DNA of 36,242 nt, taken from Natrialba swarupiae. Lineage in GTDB: Archaea; Halobacteriota; Halobacteria; Halobacteriales; Natrialbaceae. The position numbers and the translations under genes are program-made. Location: assembly GCF_008245225.1 (NCBI RefSeq), contig NZ_VTAW01000033.1:1-36242 (forward strand), written 5' to 3'. Shown here one piece after another: positions 4,395 to 30,400 of this stretch (the stretch's first letter is position 1; every line of letters begins with the position of its first letter). The notes beneath the pieces were generated by a model. It was not told the DNA's origin. It did no database searches and worked only from the letters and a program-made list of their open reading frames with translations.

Positions 4395-4706
4395 CCGGGT
4401 CTGTCGGTACTGTTTGGTTCCGTCGTCGCTCGCTGTCGGTGCGTTGACTGCTCAATTCCTGGCGGACAGTCCCACCACGACGAGCAACGCGTTTCCTCGA
4501 ACTCCTGTTTTTCGGTGAGCCAATGCGAGATACCGGTCTCAGAACGTCGAGCGGCATAATGAGCTACACGAGAACGTCGTTTTCGTGGACGTTGGCTGGT
4601 TTCGCTGATACGGTTTCCTGTCAGCTCGTCGTCTGTCTTCCTCTATATGGTTCTCTGTCCAATATTATTGGATATTTTTACAAGGGAGAGTATCGTAGTA
4701 CCGTTC
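4395..4706. other. intergenic region with promoter of the IclR gene
   Basis: No gene is supported. The right half is AT-rich; GGATATTTTTAC near 4670-4681 is the likely TATA region for the regulator starting at 4707. Confidence 0.45.
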
Positions 4707-5480
4707 ATGGGTGAGACGAACTCCAACGGGCGGATCGGTGCAGTCGAGACCGTCTTCGACGTCGTTGACGTACTCGAGGGGTCTGAGTCGGTCGGCGTTT
4801 CGGATGTCGCGGACCAGTTGGATATGCCGAAGAGCACGGCACACGTCTACCTCAAGAGTCTCGAGTCGGAGGGGTATGCGATAAACGACGACGGCACCTA
4901 TCGCCTCAGCCTCCGCTTTTTGAAACACGGTGGGAAAGCACGAAACCGCTTAAAATTATACCGCTCGGCGAAGAATCACGTGGACAAGCTCGCAAACGAC
5001 ACTGGTGAAGTCGGAAACCTGGGTGTCGAAGAACGCGGTCGACGCGTTCTCGTCTACAAATCGGAGGTCCCGGACGCGATCTACGACAACACTCCGACTG
5101 GCGAGCACACAAATATGCACTGGACGGCGCTTGGGAAGGCGATTCTCGCTCACCTCCCGCCCGAACGGGTCGACGAAATCATCGATAGACACGGGCTGCC
5201 TGCGCGGACGCCGGCGACGATAACTGATCCGGACACGCTGAAGTCGGAGCTCGAAACTGTACGAGAGAAGGGGTATTCGGTGGAGAGAGAAGAGCGCCGG
5301 GATGGTGTCGTCGCTATCGCAGTTCCTATTCAGGACAAAAGCGACGACGGAACGGTTCACTCCGTCTCTATCTCCGGACCGAAAAAACGGATTACCGGAG
5401 AGAACGGTATCAAAACGGATCTCGTCGATGCGGTCAAACAGACTGCGAACGTCATCGAACTTCAGTACAATCACTATTAG
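4707..5480 (+). CDS. IclR-family transcriptional regulator
   Basis: A DNA-binding regulator of 257 residues, normal for the family. A winged helix-turn-helix fills about residues 8-70 (VETVFDVVDVLEGSESVGVSDVADQLDMPKSTAHVYLKSL, split across helices), followed by the IclR effector-binding domain at about 85-250. Recognisable are the HWTALGKAILAHLP segment (138-151) and GYSVEREERRDGVVAIAVPI (209-228). I start at ATG 4707 because MGETNS..GRIGAVETVFDV is the family-like N-terminus; the frame extends upstream to 4647 into promoter sequence. IclR proteins usually control nearby catabolic genes and bind small organic acids. The binding-protein, dehydrogenase and transporter genes starting at 7383 are the obvious candidates, though about 1.9 kb lies between. 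Confidence 0.92.
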   Translation: MGETNSNGRIGAVETVFDVVDVLEGSESVGVSDVADQLDMPKSTAHVYLKSLESEGYAINDDGTYRLSLRFLKHGGKARNRLKLYRSAKNHVDKLANDTGEVGNLGVEERGRRVLVYKSEVPDAIYDNTPTGEHTNMHWTALGKAILAHLPPERVDEIIDRHGLPARTPATITDPDTLKSELETVREKGYSVEREERRDGVVAIAVPIQDKSDDGTVHSVSISGPKKRITGENGIKTDLVDAVKQTANVIELQYNHY

Positions 5481-7356: not shown

Positions 7357-7382
7357 GTATCGTAAATAACGTGACGGTTGCC

Positions 7383-9044
7383 ATGTCAAGTTATACCAGG
7401 CGGCACGCGCTGAAAACCGGTACGGCAGCGGCTGTCGGCCTGAGTCTGGCTGGGTGCACAGGTGACAACGGAGCGGACGCCGACGTCGTCTCCGATCCTG
7501 ACGGCGACCCCGTCGAGGAGATCACACTTCTGAGTATCGCACAAGGTGATGCGCCGGCTCGGTACGAGTACGGACAGCTGTTCGCGGACAATCTCGAGGA
7601 GGTCGGCTTCGAGGTGGAGTACGACGCACAACCGACGGTCGAGTATCTCGAAGCGAGAGCCGAGCCGCCGTACCCGTGGGACATCCAGGTTCGCCGTGCG
7701 GGCGATGGCTTCGAACCGGCGGAAGCGATTTTCAGGGGGTTCTTCCACTCGAGCAACATCGGTCCCGGTGACTCGAACCTGTACGCCTACGAAAACGACG
7801 AAGTCGACGAACTGATCGACGAACAGGCCAGTGAGATGGATCCCGATCGACGGACCGAGATCATTCACGAAATTCAGGAACATCTCCGTGAGGATATGCC
7901 GATTGTTCCGTTGCTGGTCCAGGAGCGGATCATGCCGTACAACCAGGAACGGTTTCAGAACCCGGTTCCGATCATCGAACAGGGCCTCGGTTCGTTCTGG
8001 AACTACCTCAACATCGAGCCAGTTGGGGACGATGCCCACCTTCGAACCACGATGGCGGAGGACATCAACGCGTTGAACCCGCTGGACCAAACTGCTCGAG
8101 GGGACCGCGAGATGCTCCGACTGGTTTACGACCGGCTCGTTCGCGTCTCTCCCGACCTCGAACCGGAGCCGTGGGCCGCATCGGACGTCGAGACGGTCGA
8201 CGACACGAGGATCGAAGTCTCCCTTCGCGAGGGAATGACGTTTCACGACGGTGAGCCGGTCACCGCCGAAGACGTTCAGTTCTCTTTCGAGTACGGTGCC
8301 GAGCACTCTCCGACGAAGGAAACCCGTGCGGAACCGATCGAGAGCATCGACGTGGAGACCGATCTCGATCTCGTCTTCAACCTCGAAGAGCCCAACGCAC
8401 CGTTTCTCACCAACGCGCTCGGCCGTGTCTTCATTATTCCACAGCACATCTGGGAGGACGTTCCCGACGACGTGGAAGCAGAGACCCCGATCGATTGGCA
8501 GAATGCGGAGGCGATCGGCAGTGGTCCGTTCCAGGTCGAGAGTGCGGACTTCGCCGAACAGATTCAGCTCAGTGCGTACGAGGATCACTTTCAGCCGCCG
8601 AACGTCGACCAGCTCACTCGAGCGGTCGTCTCGGACGTCCGTGCCGGCATCCGGGCGTACGAAGACGACGCGGTCGACATGATGAGCTGGGAACTGCCGG
8701 TCGACGATCTGGAACGCTTCGAGCAGGAAGAGGAAACTGCACTCGAGAGTTCGTTGATGATGTCGATTCACCACATGGGGTACAATCTTCGTGAGCCACC
8801 CTTCGACGACGTCGACGTTCGCCAGGCCGTCGCACACGCCGTTCCTCAGGAGACGATCATCGGCACCATTTACGGCGGCACAGGAGAGATCATCCACAAC
8901 CCCATATCGCCCGGCTTCGACGAGTGGTACTTGGACGACGTCGACGCGTTCGAGTCGGAGACCGACGTCACGATGCAGATGTTAGACGACATCGGATTCC
9001 AGTGGGACGACGATATGCGGCTTCACTACCCACCGGACTACTGA
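7383..9044 (+). CDS. ABC transporter substrate-binding lipoprotein, family 5, with swapped lobes
   Basis: An extracellular solute-binding protein of 553 residues for a Dpp/Opp-type transporter. The Tat signal (TRRHALKTG, residues 5-13) leads to a lipobox LAGC with C25 as lipid anchor. Residues about 46-200 then match what is normally the C-terminal lobe: EITLLSIAQGD, FADNLEEVGFEVEY, FRGFFHSSN, NDEVDELIDEQ and DMPIVPLLVQER. Residues about 219-553 match what is normally the N-terminal and middle part: LRTTMAEDINALNPLD, VYDRLVRVSPDLEPEPW, LREGMTFHDGEPVTAEDV (281-298), GSGPFQVE and VDVRQAVAHAVPQETI. It ends in LDDIGFQWDDDMRLHYP, where ordinary family members cross into the C-lobe. So each lobe appears once, in reversed order. 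The dehydrogenase and permease genes follow on the same strand. Confidence 0.9.
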   Translation: MSSYTRRHALKTGTAAAVGLSLAGCTGDNGADADVVSDPDGDPVEEITLLSIAQGDAPARYEYGQLFADNLEEVGFEVEYDAQPTVEYLEARAEPPYPWDIQVRRAGDGFEPAEAIFRGFFHSSNIGPGDSNLYAYENDEVDELIDEQASEMDPDRRTEIIHEIQEHLREDMPIVPLLVQERIMPYNQERFQNPVPIIEQGLGSFWNYLNIEPVGDDAHLRTTMAEDINALNPLDQTARGDREMLRLVYDRLVRVSPDLEPEPWAASDVETVDDTRIEVSLREGMTFHDGEPVTAEDVQFSFEYGAEHSPTKETRAEPIESIDVETDLDLVFNLEEPNAPFLTNALGRVFIIPQHIWEDVPDDVEAETPIDWQNAEAIGSGPFQVESADFAEQIQLSAYEDHFQPPNVDQLTRAVVSDVRAGIRAYEDDAVDMMSWELPVDDLERFEQEEETALESSLMMSIHHMGYNLREPPFDDVDVRQAVAHAVPQETIIGTIYGGTGEIIHNPISPGFDEWYLDDVDAFESETDVTMQMLDDIGFQWDDDMRLHYPPDY

Positions 9045-9170: not shown

Positions 9171-9180
9171 ATATTTATAA
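9171..9180 (+). promoter_or_regulatory. TATA box before the hydroxyacid dehydrogenase
   Basis: ATATTTATAA is centred about 40 bases before ATG 9216, giving a short leader of roughly 15 bases. It suggests this gene has its own promoter besides read-through from the binding-protein gene. Confidence 0.45.
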
Positions 9181-9215
9181 TGGTTACCGCACAATGTATC
9201 GACGGAAGTGTAATA

Positions 9216-10277
9216 ATGGCTGGTCAGAAAAATGTCAGTCGTGTTGATTATCGGGAGTTAGAAACGTTTGCCCACGATGTTCTTACTGCGGCAGGGGTAA
9301 CGGAACCACACGCGGCAACCGTTGCGGAGGCGTTGGTACGGGCCAATCTTCGCGGGGTGGACTCACACGGCGTCGCACGCCTCACTGCGTACGTGAACAA
9401 GTTCCGTGAGGGTGGATTCAAGCCGGACCCGGAGATGACGATCGAATCCGGTCCGTCTCGAGGGACGTTCTCGGTCGATGGTGACGGTGGGCCAGGCCAG
9501 ACTGCGGGACAAACCGCTATGCAGACTGCAATCGAACGCGCGGCGGAGATGGGGATGGCGGCTGGCGTGGTTCGAAACAGCAACCACTTCGGTACGGCGG
9601 CGTTCTACACGGAACTGGCGGCGGAACACGATTGTATCGGCATCGCGATGACGAACGTCGGGCCCGACGTCGTTCCATTTAATGGGACGAAACCGTACTT
9701 CGGCACGAATCCGATCTCGTTTGCGATCCCGACACACCGATCGTATCCGATCACGCTCGATATGGCGACGAGTGTCGTCGCGATGGGGAAAATCGATCAC
9801 GTGGCGAAAGAGACCGATGCGTCGATTCCCGATCACTGGGGGGTAGACGACGATGGGGTGCCGACTACCGATCCCCACGAGGTCAATGCGCTTCGCCCAT
9901 TGGGTGGCCCGAAAGGGTACGGACTCGCCCTCGTTGTCGACATCCTAGCTGGCGTTCTCTCCGGGTCGGGGCCGAGCCCGACCGTCAATCCGCTGTACGA
10001 CGAGTACGACCGGCCGATGGATCTTGGACACTTCGTTGCCGCCGTCGATATCTCGGCGTTCCGTGATACGACCGAGTTCAAAGACGACGTGGATACGATC
10101 ATCTCCGATATCAAAGCGATGGAGCCACGGGACGACGCGGAAGAATTGATGTTGCCTGGGGAAATCGAAACGAAGCGAAAAGAAACGCGGAGTTCGGACG
10201 GGATACCCGTTCCGAACAGCGTGGTAGAGTCTCTCCAGGAGTTAGGTGATGACTTTGGCGTTCAGTTGCCCCGGTGA
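9216..10277 (+). CDS. Ldh2/MDH2-family NAD(P)-dependent 2-hydroxyacid dehydrogenase
   Basis: A cytoplasmic oxidoreductase of 353 residues in the malate/L-lactate dehydrogenase type 2 family, which also holds ureidoglycolate, sulfolactate and 2,3-diketogulonate (YiaK) enzymes and interconverts 2-hydroxy and 2-keto acids. Family landmarks are DSHGVARL with S50, H51 and R55, NSNHFGTAAFY with the catalytic-type H124, NVGPDVVPFNGTKPYFGTNPI at about 147-167, LDMATSVVAMGKI, and PLGGPKGYGLALVVDILAGVLSG at about 228-250. Length is normal and no key residue is missing. The first ATG of the frame (9180) lies in the TATA region, so 9216 is preferred. Sitting between binding protein and permeases, it probably acts on the imported compound or its oxidation product. 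The exact substrate cannot be read from sequence. Confidence 0.9.
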   Translation: MAGQKNVSRVDYRELETFAHDVLTAAGVTEPHAATVAEALVRANLRGVDSHGVARLTAYVNKFREGGFKPDPEMTIESGPSRGTFSVDGDGGPGQTAGQTAMQTAIERAAEMGMAAGVVRNSNHFGTAAFYTELAAEHDCIGIAMTNVGPDVVPFNGTKPYFGTNPISFAIPTHRSYPITLDMATSVVAMGKIDHVAKETDASIPDHWGVDDDGVPTTDPHEVNALRPLGGPKGYGLALVVDILAGVLSGSGPSPTVNPLYDEYDRPMDLGHFVAAVDISAFRDTTEFKDDVDTIISDIKAMEPRDDAEELMLPGEIETKRKETRSSDGIPVPNSVVESLQELGDDFGVQLPR

Positions 10278-10792: not shown

Positions 10793-11767
10793 ATGAGGAA
10801 ATTCATCGTTCGAAGGGTGGCGTACCTGATCCTTACGTACTGGGCATTCATAACTATATTATTTCTCATATTTCGGGTCACGCCGGGTGATCCGACGACG
10901 CTTTACATTCCGGAAGGAATGTCGCAGGCGGAACGTCAGGCGACCCTCGAACGATACGGCCTTACGGACCCGCTTTACGTTCAGTACGTCGATTATCTTC
11001 GAATGTTGCTCTCGGGCGATCTGGGGACGTCGTATCGGTACAACGCACCCGTCTGGGACGTTTTGACGACGAAATTCTGGAATACGATCTTTCTCATGGC
11101 GGGTGCGATGACGATCGCGTACACGTTCGGTATCGCGTTTGGGGCGTACATCGGCTGGCTCCGTGGGACGGCCAAAGAGAAGTACGGCATGGTCCTGGCG
11201 CTGATAGCCCGATCGTCGCCCGAGTTCTGGATCGGAATCGTGTTGCTCTCCATCTTCGTCTTTCAGCTCGGTTGGTTCCCGTGGGGTGGGATCAGAGAAA
11301 TCGGTGCCGAGGCACCCGCGTCGTTCTTCGATCGGTACGTCAACTGGGGCTTCGTCTATCATCTGGTGTTACCCGTTCTCACGGGTGCGATATACTACAT
11401 GGCCCAGCCGATTCTCCTGATGCGAAGCAGTATGATTAGCGTTCTCAACACGGACTACATCGAAATCAAGAAAGCGGAGGGGCTCTCGAACTATACGATC
11501 CTCTACAAACACGCCGCGAGAAACTCGATCCTGCCGATGGTCACGGTCGTTGCGCTCGTCGCTGGCCTCTCGGTCGGCGGATCACTCGTCATCGAGACGG
11601 TGTTCAGCTGGCCCGGCATGGGGAGAGAGATGGTCGAATCGGTCCATCACAACGATTACCCGATGGCTCAGGGGGCGTTCTTCCTGATGGGGAGTGTCGT
11701 GATATTCATGAACTTTATCGCTGATATCGCGTACGCGTTTCTCGATCCACGAGTGAGGTACGAGTAA
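10793..11767 (+). CDS. ABC transporter permease, DppB/OppB type
   Basis: Inner membrane permease of 324 residues. It opens with MRKFIVRRVAYLILTYWAFI, the first membrane helix typical of DppB, followed by the conserved FRVTPGDP motif. The extracytoplasmic loop contains the LERYGLTDPLYVQYVDYL and LLSGDLGTSYRYNAPVWDVL signatures. The EAA-type coupling loop is in YIEIKKAEGLSNYTILYKHAARNSILPMVT, and the C-terminus is the family-typical FLDPRVRYE. About six membrane helices are visible. I take ATG 10793 because the upstream extension to 10559 covers the operator and TATA region. The next permease gene starts two bases after its stop, so the two are co-transcribed. Confidence 0.95.
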   Translation: MRKFIVRRVAYLILTYWAFITILFLIFRVTPGDPTTLYIPEGMSQAERQATLERYGLTDPLYVQYVDYLRMLLSGDLGTSYRYNAPVWDVLTTKFWNTIFLMAGAMTIAYTFGIAFGAYIGWLRGTAKEKYGMVLALIARSSPEFWIGIVLLSIFVFQLGWFPWGGIREIGAEAPASFFDRYVNWGFVYHLVLPVLTGAIYYMAQPILLMRSSMISVLNTDYIEIKKAEGLSNYTILYKHAARNSILPMVTVVALVAGLSVGGSLVIETVFSWPGMGREMVESVHHNDYPMAQGAFFLMGSVVIFMNFIADIAYAFLDPRVRYE

Positions 11768-11768
11768 C

Positions 11769-12686
11769 ATGTCGACTAACCAATCAACCATCACGACAGC
11801 CACGGAATCCGCTCGGAACAGCGTCGCGACCGCCTACTCGAAATCCCGTTCGATTCTCGAGGGTGAGCGGTTGGCACAGTTCGGCGTGATCGTCCTCGCG
11901 GTGTTTATCTTCGCGGGACTGTTCGCTCCGTTTATCGTCCCCCACGATCCAGGTAAGATCAACCACGGCGAAGACGGCGACGTGCTCCGTCTGGCGGAGC
12001 CGACCGCGGAGCATCCGTTCGGGACGACTCACCTCGGACGTGACGTCATGTCACAGGTGATGATGGGTGCGCAAGTCTCGCTCATCGTGGGCCTCACTGC
12101 GGCAGCGATCGCAACTGTCGTCGGGACGAGCGTCGCGTTGGTCGCGGGGTACTACGGCGGAAAGATCGACAACATCCTCATGCGACTCGTCGATATCGCG
12201 TACGGTCTGCCGTTTCTCCCGTTCGTCATCGCACTGGTGTTCATCTTCGGCTCCAGTCTCTACAACATCATCCTCGTGATATCGTTACTGATGTGGCGCT
12301 CGAGTGCACGCGTTATCAGATCGGAGGTGTTGACACAGAAAGAGCGGCCGTACGTTCAGTCGGCGAGGGCGGCAGGTGCGAGTGACTTCCGTATCATGTT
12401 CCGGCATATCCTCCCGAACGTGCTCCCGCTCGTCGTGTTGTACCTCACGTTCGGTGTCGCGTGGGCCGTCATCTACGAAGCCAGCATCGCGTTCCTCGGC
12501 TTCGGTGATCCGGATATGTACTCCTGGGGAACCATCCTCTACGAGGCGTACATCAACGGTGCGATCCGGTACGCCTGGTGGTGGGTTATTCCCCCAGGAG
12601 TGAGCATCATGCTGTTCGTGATGTCGGTGTTCTTCATCGGCCGGAGCCTAGAAAAGGTTACCAACCCGGACCTACGACACAACTAA
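11769..12686 (+). CDS. ABC transporter permease, DppC/OppC type
   Basis: Second permease, 305 residues. A hydrophilic N-terminus of about 35 residues leads to the first helix (FGVIVLAVFIFAGLFAPFIV). EHPFGTTHLGRDVMSQVMMGAQVSL is the standard DppC motif before helix two. The coupling loop is YVQSARAAGASDFRIMFRHILPN, and the protein ends with LEKVTNPDLRHN, the usual DppC ending DP.LR. It forms the heterodimeric channel with the preceding gene product. The start is two bases after the previous stop, and the following ATPase begins three bases after its own stop. Confidence 0.95.
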   Translation: MSTNQSTITTATESARNSVATAYSKSRSILEGERLAQFGVIVLAVFIFAGLFAPFIVPHDPGKINHGEDGDVLRLAEPTAEHPFGTTHLGRDVMSQVMMGAQVSLIVGLTAAAIATVVGTSVALVAGYYGGKIDNILMRLVDIAYGLPFLPFVIALVFIFGSSLYNIILVISLLMWRSSARVIRSEVLTQKERPYVQSARAAGASDFRIMFRHILPNVLPLVVLYLTFGVAWAVIYEASIAFLGFGDPDMYSWGTILYEAYINGAIRYAWWWVIPPGVSIMLFVMSVFFIGRSLEKVTNPDLRHN

Positions 12687-12688
12687 CA

Positions 12689-13747
12689 ATGCTCGAAATA
12701 TCCGACCTCGAAGTCAGGTACGACACGGAACACGGCGAGGTCCACGCAGTCAACGGACTGAGCGTGGACTTAGCGGAGAACGAAACGCTCGGCCTCGTCG
12801 GCGAGAGCGGCTGTGGGAAGACGACCACAGCGAAGTCGCTCATTCGCCTCCTCGAGAGTAACTGCACGATCGCCGGTGGATCGGTCGAACTCGACGGCAG
12901 AGATCTGACCGACCTCAGCCTCAAGGAGCTGAAACGGGAGGTTCGATGGAGCGAAATCTCGATGATTCCACAGAACGCGATGAACGGGTTCGATCCGGTG
13001 TACACCGTCGGCGAGCAGATCGTCGAGGTCGTTCAAGCCCACGAGTCCGATACCTCCAAAGGCGAGGCACGAGAGCGTGCGAGAGAGCTGTTCGAGAAAC
13101 TCGGGATCGACGGCGATCGGATCGACGACTACCCACACCAGTTTTCCGGTGGAATGGCCCAGCGGGCGATGGTTGCACTGGCACTCGCACTCGATCCGAA
13201 GGTAATCCTGGCCGACGAACCGACGACGGCACTCGACGTCGTTATCCAGGATCGACTACTCGACGTCATCCAGGACCTCCAGGACGAGATGGACGTCGCC
13301 ATGTTGCTTATCACCCACGACATGTCAGTCGTCTCTGAACGATGTGACAACATTGCGGTGATGTACGGCGGACGCATCGTCGAGTATGCGGATGCGGAGA
13401 CGATCATCAAGTCACCTCGTCATCCCTACACGCTGGGGCTGCGGAACTCGTTCCCGGACATTACCGAGGACTCACAGGATCTGATCTCGATTCCAGGTGC
13501 ACCGCCGACGTTGGTCGATCCTGACGAGATGTGCCAGTTCGCCCCTCGGTGTCCGTTCGCCGAAGAGGAGTGCTGGGAGGTTGCACCCGAGCCGGTGGAG
13601 TACGGAGACGGACACCGTGTCGAGTGTCACCGGGCCGACGAGGTCGAGTATCTCCGGTCGGAGGCGGAGAAACACGAGACGTGGACCGAACTCGAATCGA
13701 CGGAGACCGACGACGAACTCACCGAAACGGAGGTCAAAAATGACTGA
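12689..13747 (+). CDS. ABC transporter ATP-binding protein, DppD/OppD type
   Basis: Cytoplasmic ATPase, 352 residues. Walker A is GESGCGKTT (38-46), the Q-loop is in MIPQNAMN, the signature is FSGGMAQRAMVAL near 152-164 (a common DppD variant of LSGGQ), Walker B is VILADEP (172-178) and the switch histidine is H210 in LLITHDMSV. The C-terminal cysteine-bearing oligopeptide-transporter extension is present (MCQFAPRCPFAEEECW, then VECHR). The acidic tail after it is long. The start at 12689 follows the DppC stop by two bases. The last codons overlap the next gene by 8 bases, indicating translational coupling. Confidence 0.95.
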   Translation: MLEISDLEVRYDTEHGEVHAVNGLSVDLAENETLGLVGESGCGKTTTAKSLIRLLESNCTIAGGSVELDGRDLTDLSLKELKREVRWSEISMIPQNAMNGFDPVYTVGEQIVEVVQAHESDTSKGEARERARELFEKLGIDGDRIDDYPHQFSGGMAQRAMVALALALDPKVILADEPTTALDVVIQDRLLDVIQDLQDEMDVAMLLITHDMSVVSERCDNIAVMYGGRIVEYADAETIIKSPRHPYTLGLRNSFPDITEDSQDLISIPGAPPTLVDPDEMCQFAPRCPFAEEECWEVAPEPVEYGDGHRVECHRADEVEYLRSEAEKHETWTELESTETDDELTETEVKND

Positions 13748-14750
13748 GAGGAAGATACAAGTCCGAGACGTCAAGAAACACTTCCCGGTCGACGACGGAG
13801 CACTCTCGAACTTATTCGGGTTCGGTGAAGACCAATCCGTCAAAGCGGTCGACGGCGTCTCGTTCGACATCGACGAGGGTGAAGCGTTTGGAATCGCCGG
13901 CGAGAGTGGGTGTGGGAAGACGACACTCGCCGAGACCATCCTGCAACTCGAGGAGCCCACGGACGGGGAGATAACGATCGACGGCCGTGACGTCACCGAG
14001 ATGGACAAAGGAGAAATAAACGCGCTCCGGAGTGACGTCCAGATCATCCAGCAGGATCCCTACCAATCGTTGAACCCGCGGTTTACGGTCGTTCAGTGGG
14101 TTCAGGAGCCACTCGACATTCACGATATCGGCCCGAAAGACGAACGCCGCGAGACGGTGCGGGAGACGCTCGCCGAGGTCGGACTCCGCCCACCGGAGAA
14201 CTACATGGACGAGTACACCTCCGAACTGAGCGGTGGTGAGCGCCAGCGCGTCGGGATTGCGCGGGCAATCGTCTCCAATCCGTCGTTCGTCGTCTGTGAC
14301 GAACCGGTGAGTATGCTCGACGTGAGCATTCGTGCGAGTATCCTCCGGCTGCTCGACGACCTCCGGACGGAGAAGGGGATCTCGTTTATGTACATCAGTC
14401 ACGACCTCTCCTTGCTGAAACACGTCTGTGATCGGATCGGGATCATGTATCTCGGCAGATTCGTCGAGACCGGTCCGTCGACGCAAGTGATCAACGACCC
14501 CCAACACCCCTACACACAGGCGCTCGTCTCTTCGACACCGATAATCAACCCCGACGTCGAACGGGATCGGATCGAGCTCTCGGGTGAAGTTCCTGATCCG
14601 ATCGATCTCCCCAGCGGATGTCGGTTTGCGCCGCGGTGTCCAGAGGCGTCGGAGGAGTGTCGTGAAGGGGAGCCACGAATGTACGATGTCGCCGCCGATC
14701 AGCGATCGCGTTGTATTCTTCACGACGACCAGTACGATCTATCCTCGTAA
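13740..14750 (+). CDS. ABC transporter ATP-binding protein, DppF/OppF type
   Basis: Second ATPase, 336 residues. The DppF hallmark segment KKHFPV precedes a loop (GALSNLFGFGEDQSVKAVDG). Walker A is GESGCGKTT (54-62), the Q-loop is IIQQDPYQSLNPR, the signature is LSGGERQRVGIARAI, Walker B is FVVCDEP and the switch histidine is in YISHDLSLL. The C-terminal extension (SGCRFAPRCPEASEEC, RCILHDD) is intact. ATG 13740 overlaps the DppD end by 8 bases. With the two permeases and the other ATPase this completes an importer; the binding protein at 7383 is the likely fifth component. Confidence 0.95.
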   Translation: MTERKIQVRDVKKHFPVDDGALSNLFGFGEDQSVKAVDGVSFDIDEGEAFGIAGESGCGKTTLAETILQLEEPTDGEITIDGRDVTEMDKGEINALRSDVQIIQQDPYQSLNPRFTVVQWVQEPLDIHDIGPKDERRETVRETLAEVGLRPPENYMDEYTSELSGGERQRVGIARAIVSNPSFVVCDEPVSMLDVSIRASILRLLDDLRTEKGISFMYISHDLSLLKHVCDRIGIMYLGRFVETGPSTQVINDPQHPYTQALVSSTPIINPDVERDRIELSGEVPDPIDLPSGCRFAPRCPEASEECREGEPRMYDVAADQRSRCILHDDQYDLSS

Positions 14751-19957: not shown

Positions 19958-20308
19958 ATGACTGATGCGGACGCAGAACTGACGGAGATCGGCTTGCTGC
20001 TGGCACCGGCATACCGCGTGCTCGGCCAGCCGTATCTCGGGCCACCCGAAGAACGTACGATCTCTGCGATCCAGCAGTGGTGTGAGCTGTTCGCCGACGA
20101 GTCGATGTACGTCGACGATATGCTCAACGGTCCGAGCACGACCGAGGTCGAGGCGGTCTACGTCGAGATGGGAGTTGACCTCGCCGTCGAGGACGAGCTG
20201 ATCGATCACGCCGGATACGAGCTTTCCTTCCTCGCAGAGCTGTGTGAACGCGGCGCTCGAGACGCACAGCTCGGGTTTATTCGAACCCACATCGGTGCTT
20301 GGCTGGGT
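19958..20308 (+). pseudogene. TorD/DmsD-family chaperone, 3'-truncated
   Basis: Cytoplasmic chaperones of this all-helical family fold and load cofactor into molybdopterin enzymes. From ATG 19958 the frame reads MTDADAELTEIGLLLAPAYR, then the family core GPSTTEVEAVYVEMGVDL, the HAGYELSFLAELCERG segment (a D-H-x-x-x-E-L-x-F-L type motif), and GFIRTHIGAWL. Family-like sequence then stops at about residue 116, where members normally continue with a P and another 35-60 residues. Downstream in the same frame the product becomes an Arg-rich shadow of the next gene, up to a stop at 20935. The region normally carrying the LF-G-P segment also looks short. I conclude that the gene lost its 3' end in a deletion that fused it out of frame to the polyferredoxin gene. 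Confidence 0.7.
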
Positions 20309-22121
20309 CCACGACGAGGACGCGGCGACCGAGAAGACGGCACGGCTGGTCAACGCCGCCCGTGCGGGACTCGACGTCGACAGCGAGCCCACTTCGATTG
20401 GCGAAACCGTCGGGCAGTCCGTCGCCGTCGTCGGCGACGCGCAACTGGCCGCGGCCATGCCCGAATCGGCCGACGTCACCCTGATCGCCGACGGTCGGGA
20501 GTTCGACGACGTCGGCGCAGACCTCTCGGACGTCCGAGTCGAGCGCGGCCGCGTGATCGACGTCTTCGGGTCGCTCGGGGATATCGAGCTCACGCTCGAG
20601 GCGCGAGTCACCGACGACTGTATCGACTGCATGGAGTGTGTCCGTGCCGGTCCCGACGACGCGGTCACGCGGACGCCGGTCGACGTCGATCCCGCCGCCA
20701 CTGGTGGCGAGTGGATCGACGTCTGCCCGACCGACGCGATCGATCTCGAGGGCGTCCGGCGAACCGTCTCGTTCGATCAGGTCGTCCATCCCGACGGCGA
20801 GGACGACGCCCCCGGCGGGACGACCGGCTACCACACCGACGCCGACCTCGGGACGATCGCGGCCGTCAGCGACCTACTCGACCCCGATCGATCGTCGTTT
20901 CTCGACCTCGAGATGGACGTCTGTGCGTCGGGTGACTCCGGACAGGAGGGGTGTCGAGCCTGTTACGACGCCTGTCCCCACGACGCGGTGTCGAAGCCCG
21001 CACCACACGAGGTCAGCTTCGACCGTTCGTCCTGTCAGAACTGCGGGGCCTGTACGAGTTCTTGTCCGACCGGGGCGGTCGACCTCGCGGACCGATCCAA
21101 CGAGCGGATCGCCCGCGAGGTCGAGGCACTCGTCGACGAGGAGCCAAACGGTGGGCTGCTCGACTGGTCGTCGTCGGCTGCGGTCGACCCGCAGATCGTC
21201 GCGTTTGTCTGCTCCGAGCGGGCCCAGACGGCGCTGTCGCGATACGGGCAGCTGGCTGCGAGCGGCCGGGAGGAGGTCTCGTATCCCCCGATCCTTCCCG
21301 TTCGCGTCAACTGTACGGACACGGTCGGGCAGGCACACGTCCTCCACGCGCTCGCAGCGGGTGCCGACGGCGTGACGATCGTCGGCTGTGGCTCTGACTG
21401 TGCCCACTCCGGCCCCGACCCGAAAGCCGAGTTAGTCGAGCGACTCAACGCCGCGACGACCGACCTCGGGATGGGCGAGCGCGTGGCGTTTCTCGCCCCC
21501 GACCCCGACGCGCCGCATGCGTTCGCAGACGAGCTGTCGGCGTTCGTCGACGAGCTTACCGAGACGCCGATTCCGGCGGACGAACACGAGGCCTCGGGGA
21601 CGTCACTCACTGCCGACGACGACCTGCCCGCCTACGGCAATCGCGTCTGGAGTCTCGAGAGCATCCGGACGATCCTAGAGCACGTCGAACCCGAGCGCGA
21701 GACGATCCGCGGCCTCGAGAACTTCGGGACGATGTCGGTCAGCGAGGCCTGTGGCCTGACGCCGACCTGTGAGAACCTCTGTCCGACTGGGGCGATTCGT
21801 CGTGATGGGGGCGATCTCGAGTTTAGCCACGAGCGATGTGTCGACTGTGGCCTCTGTGAAACCGGCTGCCCCGAAAGCGCGATTACGATGGACACTGGGC
21901 TCGATCTGGGGCTGTTGCCGGAGGAAAACGACGGCGACGCCTGGACGACTGTCCACGAAGCGGAGCTGTTCGAGTGCCGTCGCTGTGGCGCGGTCGTCGC
22001 CAGCGTCTCGACTGTCGAGGATCTCAAAGCACAGCTTCCGGATGGCCAGATGGATACCGTCGAGGGCCACATGGCGGAATACTGTAGCGACTGCAAAGGC
22101 GATCTCGTCTTCAACTCATGA
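20244..22121 (+). CDS. 5'-truncated HdrA/MvhD-like polyferredoxin (hydrogenase iron-sulfur subunit type)
   Basis: An electron-transfer protein with several [4Fe-4S] sites. Family-like sequence begins abruptly at GWVHDEDAATEKTARLVNAAR (from 20301), which matches the C-S-W-V-H...ATEKA..LV..A stretch of HdrA/QmoA proteins; the preceding N-terminal part is absent. The following segment (VAVVGDAQLAAAMPESADVTLIADG) looks like a degenerate dinucleotide fold. Cysteine sites are CIDCMEC plus a distant CP, CRACYDACP, CQNCGACTSSCP, CENLCP and CVDCGLCETGCP. Between them lies an MvhD/FlpD-like domain (VCSERA, PVRVNC, GADGVTIVGCGSDC). The tail has CRRC and CSDC, a zinc or rubredoxin-like pair. The only starts are GTG codons at 20244 or 20295 inside the TorD remnant, so expression is doubtful. 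The stop overlaps the next start (ATGA). Confidence 0.8.
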   Translation: MNAALETHSSGLFEPTSVLGWVHDEDAATEKTARLVNAARAGLDVDSEPTSIGETVGQSVAVVGDAQLAAAMPESADVTLIADGREFDDVGADLSDVRVERGRVIDVFGSLGDIELTLEARVTDDCIDCMECVRAGPDDAVTRTPVDVDPAATGGEWIDVCPTDAIDLEGVRRTVSFDQVVHPDGEDDAPGGTTGYHTDADLGTIAAVSDLLDPDRSSFLDLEMDVCASGDSGQEGCRACYDACPHDAVSKPAPHEVSFDRSSCQNCGACTSSCPTGAVDLADRSNERIAREVEALVDEEPNGGLLDWSSSAAVDPQIVAFVCSERAQTALSRYGQLAASGREEVSYPPILPVRVNCTDTVGQAHVLHALAAGADGVTIVGCGSDCAHSGPDPKAELVERLNAATTDLGMGERVAFLAPDPDAPHAFADELSAFVDELTETPIPADEHEASGTSLTADDDLPAYGNRVWSLESIRTILEHVEPERETIRGLENFGTMSVSEACGLTPTCENLCPTGAIRRDGGDLEFSHERCVDCGLCETGCPESAITMDTGLDLGLLPEENDGDAWTTVHEAELFECRRCGAVVASVSTVEDLKAQLPDGQMDTVEGHMAEYCSDCKGDLVFNS

Positions 22122-22207
22122 ACACGACTGACCAGACGACCCGACTGCCGACGGATCGACCGACGATCGACGACCAAGTCCGTGTCCAGGGGGTGAACGA
22201 GCGATGA
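22118..22207 (+). CDS. 29-residue ORF with ATGA overlaps at both ends
   Basis: ATG 22118 overlaps the polyferredoxin stop, and its own TGA at 22205-22207 overlaps the Mrp-type start at 22204. Both junctions are the ATGA arrangement used for translational coupling. The product starts MNTTDQTTRLPTDRPTIDDQ and is hydrophilic with no motif. Without it there would be an 82-base untranslated gap inside an otherwise tight operon, so it may be a true small gene, a leader that passes ribosomes to the ATPase gene, or a shrunken gene. Confidence 0.5.
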   Translation: MNTTDQTTRLPTDRPTIDDQVRVQGVNER

Positions 22208-23508
22208 CGGTCTCCGAATCACAGCTTCGCGAACGGCTCCGGACGGTCGAAGATCCGGCACTCGGCATCGATATCGTCTCGCTTGGACTGGTCACGGATA
22301 TCCGTATTGCGGACGGCGTCGCGAACATCACGCTCGCGTTCAACGCCCCCTATGCGCCCGACGAGATGGCGATGGGCGATCGAATCCGTGAGGTCGTTGC
22401 CGACCTCGGCCTCGAGACCAGACTGTCGGTGACCATTCCTCAGCGCAACTCCGCCGACCCGCTTCCCGGTGTGCGCAACGTTATCGCCGTCTCCTCCGGG
22501 AAGGGCGGCGTCGGAAAGACGACTGTCGCGACGAACCTCGCGGCCGGGCTAGCCGACGCGGGCGCCCGCGTCGGCCTGCTCGACGGCGACATCTACGGGC
22601 CGAACGTGCCGAAGATGATCGGTATCGACGGCGAACCGGGGATGACCGACGACGGGACCCTCGTACCGCCGGAAGCCTACGGCTTGAAAGTCATCAGTAT
22701 GGCGTTTCTCACCCGCGAAGACGACGATCCGGCCGTGTTGCGAGGGCCGATGGTCGACAAGATCCTCATCCAGCTCATCGAGGAGGTCGAATGGGGGAAC
22801 CTCGACTATCTCGTGGTCGACCTCCCCCCTGGAACAGGTGACGCCCAGCTGACGCTGCTCCAGACGCTCCCGGTCACCGGTTCCGTCGTCGTGACGACGC
22901 CCGAAGAGGTCGCTACCGACGACGTTCGAAAAGGTATCGAGATGTTCCGAAACCACGACACCCCAGTGCTCGGCATCGCCGAGAACATGAGCGCGTATCA
23001 CTGCCCCGACTGTGGGGGCGAACACGCGCTGTTCGGCAGCGGTGGCGGCCGGGAAGTCGCCGAAACGTACGACGTCCCGTTGCTCGAGGAGATCCCGATG
23101 AACCCCGAGATCAGAACACGCAGCGACGATGGCGCGCCGGTCGTGCTCTGGGAGACCGAGGCCTCGGAGCCGTTCGAGGACCTCGTCGAGTCGGTCACCA
23201 ATCGAGTCGGTGCGATCAACCGCGCCGATGTCGCCGGAATCGATCCCGACGATCCATCGCGGGACGAGCTGACGACACCGACAGCATACGGCGGCCTCGA
23301 GAACGGGGACGAAACGCCGTCGGCGACCGACCACGACGGGGCGTCCGCTGTAGACTCTCTCGAGGCGACACCTGACGCGGTCGAAGACGACGACGAACCG
23401 CTTGATGACGGCGACGAGCGCGTGACCGCTGACAAGGACGAACGAGATGGCGATGAGGAGGATGAAACACGTTCGTTCGGCGGCCTCGACGTGTCCGATA
23501 GACGGTAA
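22204..23508 (+). CDS. Mrp/ApbC-type Fe-S cluster carrier ATPase
   Basis: A cytoplasmic P-loop ATPase of 434 residues that binds and hands over Fe-S clusters. Residues 1-75 form a MIP18/DUF59 domain (VEDPALGIDIVSLGLV). The deviant Walker A SSGKGGVGKTT is at 97-107, DGDIYGPNVPKM follows, then the Walker B region VVDLPPGTGD and the cluster-binding CPDCGG. After the catalytic part an extra tail of about 85 residues is extremely acidic and low-complexity, ending RSFGGLDVSDRR; usual family members stop near 350 residues. Coupled downstream of a multi-cluster polyferredoxin gene, it probably helped mature that protein or a lost molybdoenzyme partner. Confidence 0.92.
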   Translation: MTVSESQLRERLRTVEDPALGIDIVSLGLVTDIRIADGVANITLAFNAPYAPDEMAMGDRIREVVADLGLETRLSVTIPQRNSADPLPGVRNVIAVSSGKGGVGKTTVATNLAAGLADAGARVGLLDGDIYGPNVPKMIGIDGEPGMTDDGTLVPPEAYGLKVISMAFLTREDDDPAVLRGPMVDKILIQLIEEVEWGNLDYLVVDLPPGTGDAQLTLLQTLPVTGSVVVTTPEEVATDDVRKGIEMFRNHDTPVLGIAENMSAYHCPDCGGEHALFGSGGGREVAETYDVPLLEEIPMNPEIRTRSDDGAPVVLWETEASEPFEDLVESVTNRVGAINRADVAGIDPDDPSRDELTTPTAYGGLENGDETPSATDHDGASAVDSLEATPDAVEDDDEPLDDGDERVTADKDERDGDEEDETRSFGGLDVSDRR

Positions 23509-24425: not shown

Positions 24426-27400
24426 ATGGTAAATCAGGGGCAGGGCACGACCCGGCGGGGACTGGGCGTGCTCATCTGGATCGGAATCGTGGGAATCTGC
24501 GGACTGTGTGTTGTCGGTGGTGTCGCCGGGATCGCAGCTGCAGACGCTGGCGACGGATCGGAAGCGGATCGAATCACACCGACGCAGTTCGACAGCGACG
24601 AGGGCGACGTGCTCTGGGAGACCGACGAAGACCTCACCACCGGGGGAGCCCCGACGGTCGTCGACGGGATTCTCGTGACGACGACCGGCGACACTGGCGC
24701 AGACGCGGCCGTCACTGCGTACGACGTCGGGACGGGTGAGACGCGCTGGACGACCGAGGTCCCGACCGACGGATCGCCGACGGTCGTCGACGAGACGGTG
24801 TACGTCACCGGCACGGACGGCGTCTGGGCGCTCGACCTCGAACTCGGGACGCTCGAGTGGCACGTCGAGTTCGACGACGGGACGAGTTCATCGCGGGCAC
24901 TCGGCGTCGACGGCGACTACGTCTACGTCGGCGAGTCGATCGACGCGACCACGGATCGACTGTACGCACTCGACGCCGACGATGGAAGCGAGCAGTGGTC
25001 GACGGAGACGGCGACCATCTACAGCGGCCCGACGGTCGTCGACGGGACGGTCTACGTCGGTACGGCCGACAAACTGGTCGCGGTCGATGCGTCTGACGCT
25101 GAAGAGCAGTGGACGTGGGACGACTACGGCGTCCTCGAGGATCGGTCGGCTATCTCGGAGCCGACGGTGTCCGACGGCCTCCTCTACGTCAGCCTTCGGG
25201 AGGGAACCGAACAGGGCGGCTACGATCGCTCCACCGTGGCGATCGACATCGAGACAGGCGAGGACGAATGGACGCACGCGTTCGATGGTCCCTCGGGGGG
25301 AGACGTCTCCCAGACGCCCACGACACCAACAGCCTCGGGCGAGAGCGGTGAGGCGACGGTTTACGTCGCATTCGACGGACTGTACGCCCTGGACGCGACC
25401 GACGGCAGCGAACGGTGGATCGACGAGACGACGGTGTGGGACGCGCCGACGGTCGCCGACGGAACGCTGTTCGTTCCGCAGTCGACGGATTCGGGAGCGC
25501 TACGAGCGCTCGACGTCACCGACGAAGGAAGCGAGCTGTGGTCAGTCGAGACCGGCGATCGCAGCGACGTCATCGTCGTCGACGGCGTCCTCTACGTCGC
25601 GGTGCAAGTAGACGAAACGGGCGAGACACGCCTGATGGCGATCGACGCCGGCGTCTCGGGCTCCAGTAGCGACGCTCGCGTAATGGTCGGCGTACAGAAC
25701 AACCACCACGAGTGGACCGGCACGGTGGCGGAGACTGATCCGCGCGTCGTCGACGTCGCGTTCGACGAGGGCGTCCTCGTCGAGGAGGATGTTTCGGTCA
25801 CGGTGACGGCGAGAAACGATCGGGGGCAGGCGAGTACTGCGAGTTTCGACCTCGAGCTCGGCGGCGAGACGGAGACCGTGACCCTCGAGGTTCCGGCCTA
25901 CGGGACGAACACCGTCGACTCGTCGATATCCGCACCCGCAGCGGCGGGGACGTACGACCTCGAGGTCGATGACGCGGTCGTCGGGACGGTTACCGTCGTC
26001 GACGAGTCCGACCCGATCGTCCGAGTCGTGCACCCGTTCTACGAGACGTGGCTCGAGGGCGACTCGGTACAGATCGCCTACGAGGCGACGAACCTCGGAA
26101 CTGAATACGTTGATGAGAACACAACCCTGTCGCTTGAAGGGCCGGCGTTTGACGGTCGCGAAGATGTCGCGTTCGTGGACGCTGAAGGACCTTTGCCGGG
26201 TGAAGAACGAACGTACTTCCTTAATACCGACGAGATTACCGACCCTGGAACGTACACCGCATATCTCGAGGGCGAGGAGATCGGGACGATCGTGGTAGTT
26301 TCGGACCCGGTCTACCTGGCCGACACTAACCGACTGCACGACTCGATCATCAGCGGTATCGAAGCGCCCGTCGATCCGAGCGCTGCGGGTGAGGCGAGCG
26401 TCGACGTTCGCTACGAGAATCTCGTCGATGGAGGCCAGAGCGTCGAGAGCGAGCTGGTCGCCTACGACGGGGGGAACGAGGTTGCAAGCGTCACCGACAC
26501 AGTCTCTGTCGGCGGCGAAAGTGCCGAAACAGAGCGATTGAGTGTCACGCTTGCTGAAGCCGGTACGTACGATCTCGAGGTCGACGGCCAGTCCGTCGGT
26601 GAGGTCGAAGTACTCGTCGACGGCGTTCAGGATGGTGACAGCATCCAGGATGCGATCGACGCGGCCCAGCCGGGCGAGACGATCCTCGTCGGGAACGGCA
26701 CCTACGAGGAGTCACTCACGATCGACAAGCCGCTGACGCTGCGGTCGGTGTCCGACGGTGGTGCCGTTCTCGACGGGGAGGGCAAACTCGAGCGTGCGAT
26801 CACGGTGGACGCAGCGGACGTGACCGTCGACGGGGTCCGGATCGAGGGGTATTCCGGCGGAGGCGAGGCTGTCTTCGTCGGTGACGATCGGTTCACACTT
26901 CGAAATACCGCTATCGTCGACAACGACGGTGGCGCACTCACAATCGACCGAAACAGTGACGAATTCAGTATCGATCGCAACGAGATACGCAGAAACGATG
27001 CTGGTATCGTCGACGGTGATAGTTGGTACCCCTCCGATGACGGTACGATTACGAACAACACGATCGAAGACAACCAGGGTCTCGGGATCGACCTTGCAGG
27101 GGACGATCACGGTATCGCAAAGAACAACGTGAGCGGCGACGGCGACGCCATTTCTGCAACCGGATCAGATTTGGAAATTTGTCAGAACAACGTAACGGCG
27201 ACAGACGGCATCGCCATCCAGATCCGGGGCGATTCGGTCGTGGTGGACAATACGATCGAGGATGCCGAATGGGGGATCCACCGGGACGGTACTATCTCCA
27301 TGGACGGGACAGCCATTGAGGGAAATACCTTCCGCGATGTCTCCCACGCAATCCCGCACGCGGGTGATGATACGATCGTCCGTGACAACGAGTTTTCGGG

Positions 27401-30400
27401 GACTGACATCGACCTCGTGCTCGACGGTGCGATCAACGCGACGGTCACAGACAACGCATTCGTCACGGGCATTCAGCTCGACGGCGTTCCCGAAGACCTC
27501 GACGCGAATCCACACGAGATGTCCGAAAACACCGTCGGTGGTGACCCGCTCGTGTACGCCGTCGACGAAGACGCCCCCGCGATCGATCCTGGTGCCGGAC
27601 AGGTCATCCTCGTCGACGTCTCGAACGTCGAAATCGACGAGCACTCGTTCTCGAACGTGAGTGCAGGGGTGCAAGTGACCCACTCCGATAGCGTCGATAT
27701 CATCGGCGGCGAGTTCACCGATATCGGTGGCAGCGCGATCAGCGTTTGGCACTCGTCGTCGGTGTCCGTCGATGAAGTCGACGTGATGGACGCAGAATAT
27801 GGATTGGACGTTTTCGACAGTGACGGCGTGACGGTCTCGAATGTGGACTTCACAGCTGTCGGTCGTACCGCGATTCACGTCGAACACGTCGAGGGGCTCT
27901 CGATCGTCGGGAACAGCATCCAGGACGCCAACCGCGGTCTCCACGTACTCACGGCAGACGAGGTAACAGTGACCGACAACGTCATCGAGGACTCGAGTAC
28001 TGGCGTTCAGTTCGGTTTGCTGTCGCCCGGAGGTCTGGCCACCACCGAAAACCTCACGTTCATGAACAACACGATCACCGGAAGTAGCGGTGACGGCGTG
28101 AAGATGGATTGGGGTTCACTCACCGGCGTGGTGACGGTTCGCGATTCCACCGTTCGTGACAACGGCGGGGTCGGAATGGACCTCGACATCGACGGTGTGG
28201 ATGCGCTGATCAAGAACAACACCGTCAGGGACAACGAGGGCGACGCCGGATTCGTCCTCGATGTAGAGAGTGAAACGGCGACAATCTCGGACAACGTCGT
28301 CACCGACAACAGCGGTGCTGTCGGATTCGATATTCACGTCGACACCGCTGATGGCACGATCGAATCGAACACCGTACGACACAACGAGGACGGCCTCGTC
28401 GTGACCGGCAACGGTGAGTACGGTCTCGAAAACGCCACGATCACGCAGAATATTATCGAGGACAACACCGGAATCGGACTCACTGTCGGCGGGGACCAGA
28501 ACGTCGTCGTCACCGAGAACTCGATCGCTGGTAATGGCGACGGTCTGTTGTACACCAATGGCCTCGAGAACCTCGACGCGCGAAACAACTGGTGGGGTGC
28601 GGTTGACGGGCCAAGCGGCGGTGAAACCGATCCGGAAACAGGTGCTGTTGCAGACGGGAGCGGCGACTCACTCGACACAGCCGGTGGTTGGGCAGATTAC
28701 GTGTTGTTCGACGAGTGGCTCGAGGCCCCACTCCTCGAGACTGGGACGATCACTGGCACTGTCACTGACGCGGACTCCGAGGACTCGCTCGACGGGGCGA
28801 CTGTCGTCGTCACCGACGACGCCGGAGTTACTGAGACCGCCGAAACCGACGAGAACGGAGTGTACGAGCTCGTCGTTCCCGTCGGGACGTACGACCTGAC
28901 GGTGAGCGCCGACGGCTACGCCGAGGCCGAAGAGACCGCCCTCGAGGTGGCTGACGGCGGTGTACTGACGACGGACGTTAGCCTCCACGTGGGTGAAGCG
29001 TCGATCAGCGGGACGGTCGTCGACGCCGAAACCGGCGATCCGGTTCCAGACGCGGAACTCGAGGTGGTCGAACAGGTCGACGTTGGCCAGACGGATCCCG
29101 CCCCGGACGGATTTGCGACGACTCTCTCGACCGACGCGAACGGTGCGTTCGACCTCGACGTCCCACCGGGGGTCTACGAAATCACCGTCGAAACACTCGG
29201 ATACGCGAACGGAGGCCGTCAGAACATCGAACTCGAGACGGGTGAACAACAATCACTCGACGATATCGAACTCGCTTCGGTTCCGGTTCTGAGCGGCACC
29301 GTAACGGATTCGGAGACGGACGAACCTATCCAGGGGGCCGAGATCGAATCGCGGTTCTTCGCGAGTGACCCGTTGTACACAACGACGACGGATGCCGATG
29401 GCGAATACGCGATCAACCTCCCGGAACATCACTCGCAAACGCCGTCGGTCGAATTCGCCGCTGATGGGTACTTCTCGAACACAATCACCGCTGACGACGA
29501 CCGTCTCGCGGACCCCGCGGGCGGCGACGTCGAACTTACCGTCGAACGTGAACCGGGAACCGTCACCGGCCAGGTTACGACGGAGACCGACGACCCGGTG
29601 GCGTCCGCCCACGTCACCACCAGTGACGGAAGCGGATCCGCGTGGACGAATGCGACCGGATACTACAATCTTCATCTCCAACCGGGGACGTACACGCTCG
29701 AGGTGACGACCGAGGAAGCCGTGCCACAGTCCGGGACGGTCGACGACGTCGAAGTGGTCGAAGGGGGAACCACCACGGCGGATATCGTCGTCTCCCCGGG
29801 ATCACTCGAGCCGCCGTCGGCGAACGTATCCGTCGAGATTCAACCGACAGCGAGTACGACCAGCGCCACCGAGGGTGAGAACCTGACCGTCGTCGCCGAC
29901 ATCGATAATTCCGGGACGGGGTCGACAGATTCGATAGTCGTACTGGGAGTCGAGGAACTGGAATCGTCGGAATCTCTGTACGAGGCGGAACCCCGTTCGG
30001 TCTCTCTCGAGGCCGGCGAACACGTGACCGAGACGTTCACCTTCGAGTCGGAACTCGAGTTCGACGGTGCTGAGGCGGTCGTCGCTGCGTTCCCACCAGG
30101 ATCGGACGAACCCGACGACGTCGACGAGATCGAACTCTCGGTTTCGGAAGCCGATGCCGATCGGGAACTCGAGTCGCTGTCGCTTTCGATCGACGAGACG
30201 ACGATCTCCGAGGGATCGGCGACGTCGGCGACGGTGATCGCGACGTTCGACGACGGAACGACCGAGGACGTCACCGCCGAGACTCACTTGGCGAGTGATC
30301 CCGTGGATGTCGTCGCCATCGCTGGCTCGACGGTCGTCGGCGAGGAAACCGGAACGGCGACGATCACCGCCGATTATCAGGGCGAGACCGATAGCGTCGA

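Follow-up and report, generated by a model that had tools for sequence, protein, structure and literature searches.

The 553-residue protein P0001, encoded in the window (the whole 36,242-nucleotide stretch of Natrialba swarupiae DNA that was analysed), belongs to the family 5 (SBP_bac_5, cluster C) solute-binding proteins and has its segments in circularly permuted order. The order is conserved among relatives, the gene lies in an operon with DppBCDF-type genes, and permuted proteins co-segregate with a permease lineage of their own. With a probability of roughly 0.86, we propose that P0001 is the working binding lipoprotein of the adjacent importer. Family 5 binding proteins form a very large textbook family and are some of the most frequent nutrient receptors in prokaryotes, and to our knowledge the dozens of solved members all share one topology.

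The permuted order is evident from matches to ordinary family members in two stretches of swapped order. The Pfam profile SBP_bac_5 (PF00496) recognises P0001 at 8e-54 (183.6 bits against a cut-off of 32.4) in two stretches rather than in one collinear match over the whole protein, the main stretch pairing residues 260-544 with profile positions 1-283 of 368. The first two thirds of canonical members correspond to residues ~219-545 of P0001, and their last third to residues ~46-190. Phmmer searches of the PDB align residues 232-540 with AppA (1xoc) 36-345 and residues 33-191 with AppA 349-502, and 5u4o and 5isu show this out-of-order pattern too. Likewise, a profile built from 25 permuted relatives matches 1xoc (AppA), 8efz (CcNikZ-II) and DppA in two stretches of swapped order, with domain-2 i-values of 1e-14 to 1e-16, and its positions 55-192 correspond to mature DppA 353-489. 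Every significant Pfam, NCBIfam and PDB match of mature P0001 belongs to family 5 or cluster C. No solved structure among these is permuted, the best stretch being the canonical N-terminal part in 60 of the 60 PDB matches listed, and in none of them the whole length of the permuted protein. The segment profiles find each segment only once in P0001, which rules out a truncation or a tandem duplication. An earlier note on this DNA had proposed a circular permutant with single-copy segments, whose order would recur in haloarchaeal orthologues. The swapped segments against AppA, OppA and DppA, the segment profiles and the full-length collinear relatives in many haloarchaea bear out these proposals.

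The open reading frame of P0001 runs uninterrupted from an ATG at 7383 to a stop codon at 9042-9044, and an alternative GTG start at 7371 would add four residues. Its N-terminal sequence combines a twin-arginine pair with the lipobox LAGC; in 25 relatives the arginine pair is invariant and the lipobox cysteine nearly so. Both the secretion signal and the membrane tether expected of family 5 proteins outside the Gram-negative periplasm are therefore present. The stretch that joins the two segments carries EQGLGSFWNYLNIEP (residues 199-213), which is kept in nearer relatives (GLGSFWN...EP), and the gap between the two segment profiles measures 12-14 residues in close relatives.

Table 1. Positions in the window of the P0001 gene, its parts and its neighbours.
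Feature	Position	Strand	Evidence
IclR-family regulator upstream, candidate operon regulator	4647..5480	+	PF01614 8e-39
P0001, circularly permuted family 5 solute-binding lipoprotein, 553 aa	7383..9044	+	profile and PDB alignments
Tat signal peptide and lipobox, residues 1-25 (RR at 6-7, Cys25)	7383..7457	+	sequence; relatives
Residues 44-181, last two thirds of domain III (lobe 2), the terminal part of ordinary members	7512..7925	+	alignments
Predicted second hinge strand (residues 174-187), leading from lobe 2 into lobe 1	7902..7943	+	AF2 strand; mature DppA ~472-485
Residues 188-218, old C-terminal tail fused to old N-terminus	7944..8036	+	segment profiles
Residues 219-454, lobe 1 (domains I and II), the opening part of ordinary members	8037..8744	+	alignments
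Predicted first hinge strand (residues 452-467), leading from lobe 1 into lobe 2	8736..8783	+	AF2 strand; mature DppA ~256-270
Residues 468-553, first third of domain III (lobe 2), new C-terminus after helix QMLDDIGF	8784..9041	+	alignments
Ldh_2 (malate/L-lactate dehydrogenase family) oxidoreductase, between binding-protein and permease genes	9180..10277	+	PF02615 1.3e-118
DppB-type permease; start deduced by alignment (longest ORF from 10559)	10793..11767	+	
DppC-type permease	11769..12686	+	
DppD-type ATPase with oligo_HPY; actual start possibly further downstream	12578..13747	+	
DppF-type ATPase with oligo_HPY; actual start possibly further downstream	13497..14750	+	

Alignment places the break at OppA ~356, that is, mature DppA ~341. 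In OppA, domain III (lobe 2) comprises residues 270-486, and residues 487-517 are back in domain I (PMC6305025). The chain is thus broken ~80-90 residues inside lobe 2 and not, as the earlier note had it, at the entry into the C-lobe; mapping onto OppA and DppA rules out a break at the hinge. The same note was right that the chain end near the lipid anchor belongs to the second lobe, but nothing points to the altered hinge motion that it envisaged as possible, since a break inside lobe 2 leaves both hinge strands in place, as in the AlphaFold2 (AF2) model. Lobe 1, which is discontinuous in normal members, would become one continuous stretch (~188-454), the two ends of the chain would together form lobe 2, and the lipid anchor would have shifted from lobe 1 to lobe 2. 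The break loop is shared by two of the permuted groups described below, clade A and group B, in which the segments end at canonical ~107-109 and start at ~109-120: the C-terminus lies just past the helix that reads xxARELLEEAGY in normal members, and the N-terminal part restarts at the strand following it.

The predicted structure of P0001 is consistent with this geometry. The AF2 model of the whole protein (pTM 0.74, mean pLDDT 71.8), made from a 24-row alignment that consists mostly of half-protein fragments of normal members, contains the pair of long strands that a hinge should show (Table 1). In a Foldseek search of the PDB, the best matches of this model are family 5 proteins (NikA, NikZ, AppA and DppA, with E down to 2e-16), in alignments of only ~350 columns with TMq ~0.4-0.5. 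Such short alignments fit a sequential aligner applied to a permutant, but are no proof of one. Residues 42-214 folded alone give a weak model (pLDDT 59, pTM 0.49), for which family 5 tops the Foldseek list, but only at E >= 0.04. Judged from these models, a two-lobed cluster C fold is likely for P0001.

How might such a protein work? We propose that the original chain ends, which both lie in domain I of lobe 1, would have been linked by a short loop (~188-218), and that new termini would have been opened in a surface loop of lobe 2, after the helix xxARELLEEAGY. The chain would then begin within lobe 2, pass through the hinge into lobe 1 and along all of it, and return through the hinge to finish within lobe 2. 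The two-lobed fold, the cleft and the two hinge strands would be kept intact, with the anchored terminus on lobe 2 instead of lobe 1, and P0001 would capture its ligand and deliver it for transport as DppA does. In E. coli, DppB contacts both lobes of DppA via a scoop motif (PMC12136057), and the permutation would remove none of the surfaces that the scoop touches. As for the ligand, DppA D408 binds the peptide amine (PMC8566422); P0001 D108 aligns with D408, and the position of DppA R355 is occupied by alanine. From these residues an amine-bearing ligand is plausible, which may be peptide-like, and binding of the carboxylate in the standard dipeptide fashion is not assured.

Perhaps the new order was itself selected, because a tether on lobe 2 improves docking or capture where binding proteins are membrane-anchored. 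With lobe 2 holding both new termini, the N-terminal lipid of P0001 and the C-terminal membrane anchor of its relative L085 both attach there, and the authors of the structure of TpMglB-2, another natural permutant, raise the same idea for their protein (PMC4990184). However, normal and permuted lipoproteins exist side by side in one genome, and two permuted Bacillota proteins (L120 and L121) have no lipobox in their sequence. We regard such selection as tentative and rather doubtful.

The proposal that P0001 serves its neighbouring importer draws on the genetic link between P0001 and DppBCDF-type genes at its locus (Table 1). DppBC genes also neighbour permuted binding-protein genes in most of the relatives examined, and a homologue of the IclR-family regulator, 54% identical, lies near one other permuted locus (L100). 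In a tree of DppB, 13 of the 14 partners of permuted binding proteins group together in one clade (100/99) that excludes the eight partners of normal binding proteins. The 16 kb around two further permuted genes of the same genome (L051 and L052, neighbourhoods L153 and L154) contain no DppBC genes, so that not every permuted binding protein need serve a neighbouring importer. Within the P0001 operon, the placement of the Ldh_2 gene suggests that catabolism is coupled to the imported compound. Farther along the window and on the same strand lies a gene for an FlpD or multiple 4Fe-4S protein (20244-22121, +) that resembles partners of heterodisulfide reductase, here in a haloarchaeon, followed by one for an Mrp/NUBPL-type P-loop protein (22204-23508). 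A 3766-residue open reading frame (24426-35726, +) appears by eye to encode a secreted protein with PQQ-like and parallel beta-helix-like parts, many near-identical repeats of ~90 residues and a C-terminal PGF-CTERM-like anchor.

To classify the relatives, separate profiles were made for the two segments and their order was scored in every fetched protein. Segment order splits the relatives cleanly into 85 distinct permuted and 33 normal proteins. The permuted set is mainly haloarchaeal, and it also includes Bacillota (e.g. L118-L137), Actinomycetota (L142 and L143) and, from outside the haloarchaea, a family of their phylum (L085-L088), which rules out a confinement of permutants to haloarchaea. 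Several Bacillota and Rubrobacter proteins (L032-L037, L039 and L040) have the normal order, so that segment order tracks lineages and not phyla. The genome that encodes P0001 holds both kinds: among its 14 SBP_bac_5 matches, at least five are permuted (P0001, L047, L049, L051 and L052) and at least six are verified as normal (L041-L046), counts that are lower bounds because the census was built from family search matches and further members are possible. One match (L050, G000:C58:11162-11716) has an internal TAG stop, which may reflect a broken gene or an effect of the contig edge. A search of viral contigs found no relatives.

Did the permutation arise once or repeatedly? When the segments are put into canonical order, the tree separates the permuted proteins into three clades with normal ones between them: clade A, which contains P0001 and comprises haloarchaea, Bacillota and Actinomycetota; clade B, with L085, L086 and Bacillota; and clade F047, a second permuted kind of the P0001 genome with orthologues in its family. 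A single clade of all permuted proteins is rejected (p-AU 2.4e-5) once orthologues are added that shorten the L047 branch, was not rejected with an earlier row set (p-AU 0.059), and the union of A and B is rejected only marginally (p-AU 0.033), all of these values flattering separate origins because the groups were named after the tree had been seen. The L047 family, moreover, seems to be cut about one helix earlier than A and B, as judged partly by eye. At least two independent origins are probable, and three are possible. In L047 itself (G000:C22:20811-22427) and its orthologues (L156-L167), the N-terminus apparently keeps the helix that is C-terminal in group A. Several of the orthologues end in DPxFEAxI..EY, which by eye may be a second copy of the helix and a possible relic of duplication.

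It is possible that one ancient permutation was inherited or transferred, and that the scatter in the tree reflects saturation and a long-branch artefact. The common break loop of A and B would fit this, as would the survival of a single clade with the first row set and the marginal value for A and B. On the other side stand the firm rejection after orthologues were added (of a group named in hindsight), the apparently earlier cut in the L047 family and the DppB of L047, which groups with partners of normal binding proteins. We therefore consider a single origin unlikely. The family may instead have been permuted independently at least twice, probably three times, in the same stretch of lobe 2, with the products spreading across several lineages of archaea and bacteria together with a permease clade of their own, a scenario for which we see an even balance of arguments. 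If origins were repeated in this way, a chain opened in lobe 2 and tethered by that lobe would be a functional alternative, arrived at repeatedly, to the textbook topology.

For the route to each permutation, the earlier note suggested a tandem duplication after which the outer halves were lost. This is plausible, and we infer it rather than observe it, given that the expected intermediate, a three-segment protein, does not occur among the 118 classified proteins. One candidate for it, a 1336-residue open frame (L089), turned out to be an ordinary permuted protein behind low-complexity open-frame translation. The missing intermediate and the many family 5 paralogues per haloarchaeal genome could also speak for domain shuffling, in which pieces of two different family 5 genes were fused. 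Such a fusion is improbable, however, since the two segments make up one complete, non-overlapping family set with the same break loop in A and B, and their concatenation in canonical order yields a coherent tree. An assembly error, a frameshift or a pseudogene as the source of the order in P0001 is refuted by the intact reading frame with its Tat signal, lipobox and operon context and by dozens of independent genomes with the same order, full-length collinear orthologues excluding chance and mis-assembly.

A widespread permutant means that standard annotation, which reads 'SBP_bac_5' only, hides segment order. Genomes with both normal and permuted receptors also provide natural pairs with which it is directly testable whether the tethering lobe matters and why the fold tolerates, perhaps repeatedly, being opened at one site in lobe 2. 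The earlier note knew of no described example in family 5, and the open-licence literature, which defines the scope here to the exclusion of subscription papers, likewise yielded no description of a family 5 or cluster C permutant; one paper contains both 'SBP_bac_5' and 'circular permutation', with the terms unconnected. It is likely, though not certain, that circular permutation is new for cluster C, with TpMglB-2 of cluster B as the precedent.

Among known systems, DppA, OppA, AppA and NikA of cluster C are closest to P0001, sharing homology over both segments and the setting of a lipoprotein beside DppBCDF-type genes; they differ from it in their canonical segment order and in having their termini in lobe 1, whereas those of P0001 lie in lobe 2. 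The E. coli DppABCDF system (PMC12136057) has permease and ATPase subunits homologous to those of the P0001 operon, but its DppA is of normal order. TpMglB-2 (Tp0684) of Treponema is a membrane-tethered ABC binding protein that is naturally permuted and has kept its two lobes and ligand-induced closure; the permutant is widespread in relatives, and its authors proposed the names Type Ic and Cluster Bc (PMC4990184). Unlike P0001, TpMglB-2 belongs to cluster B (glucose/galactose type), and thus represents a separate family and a separate permutation.
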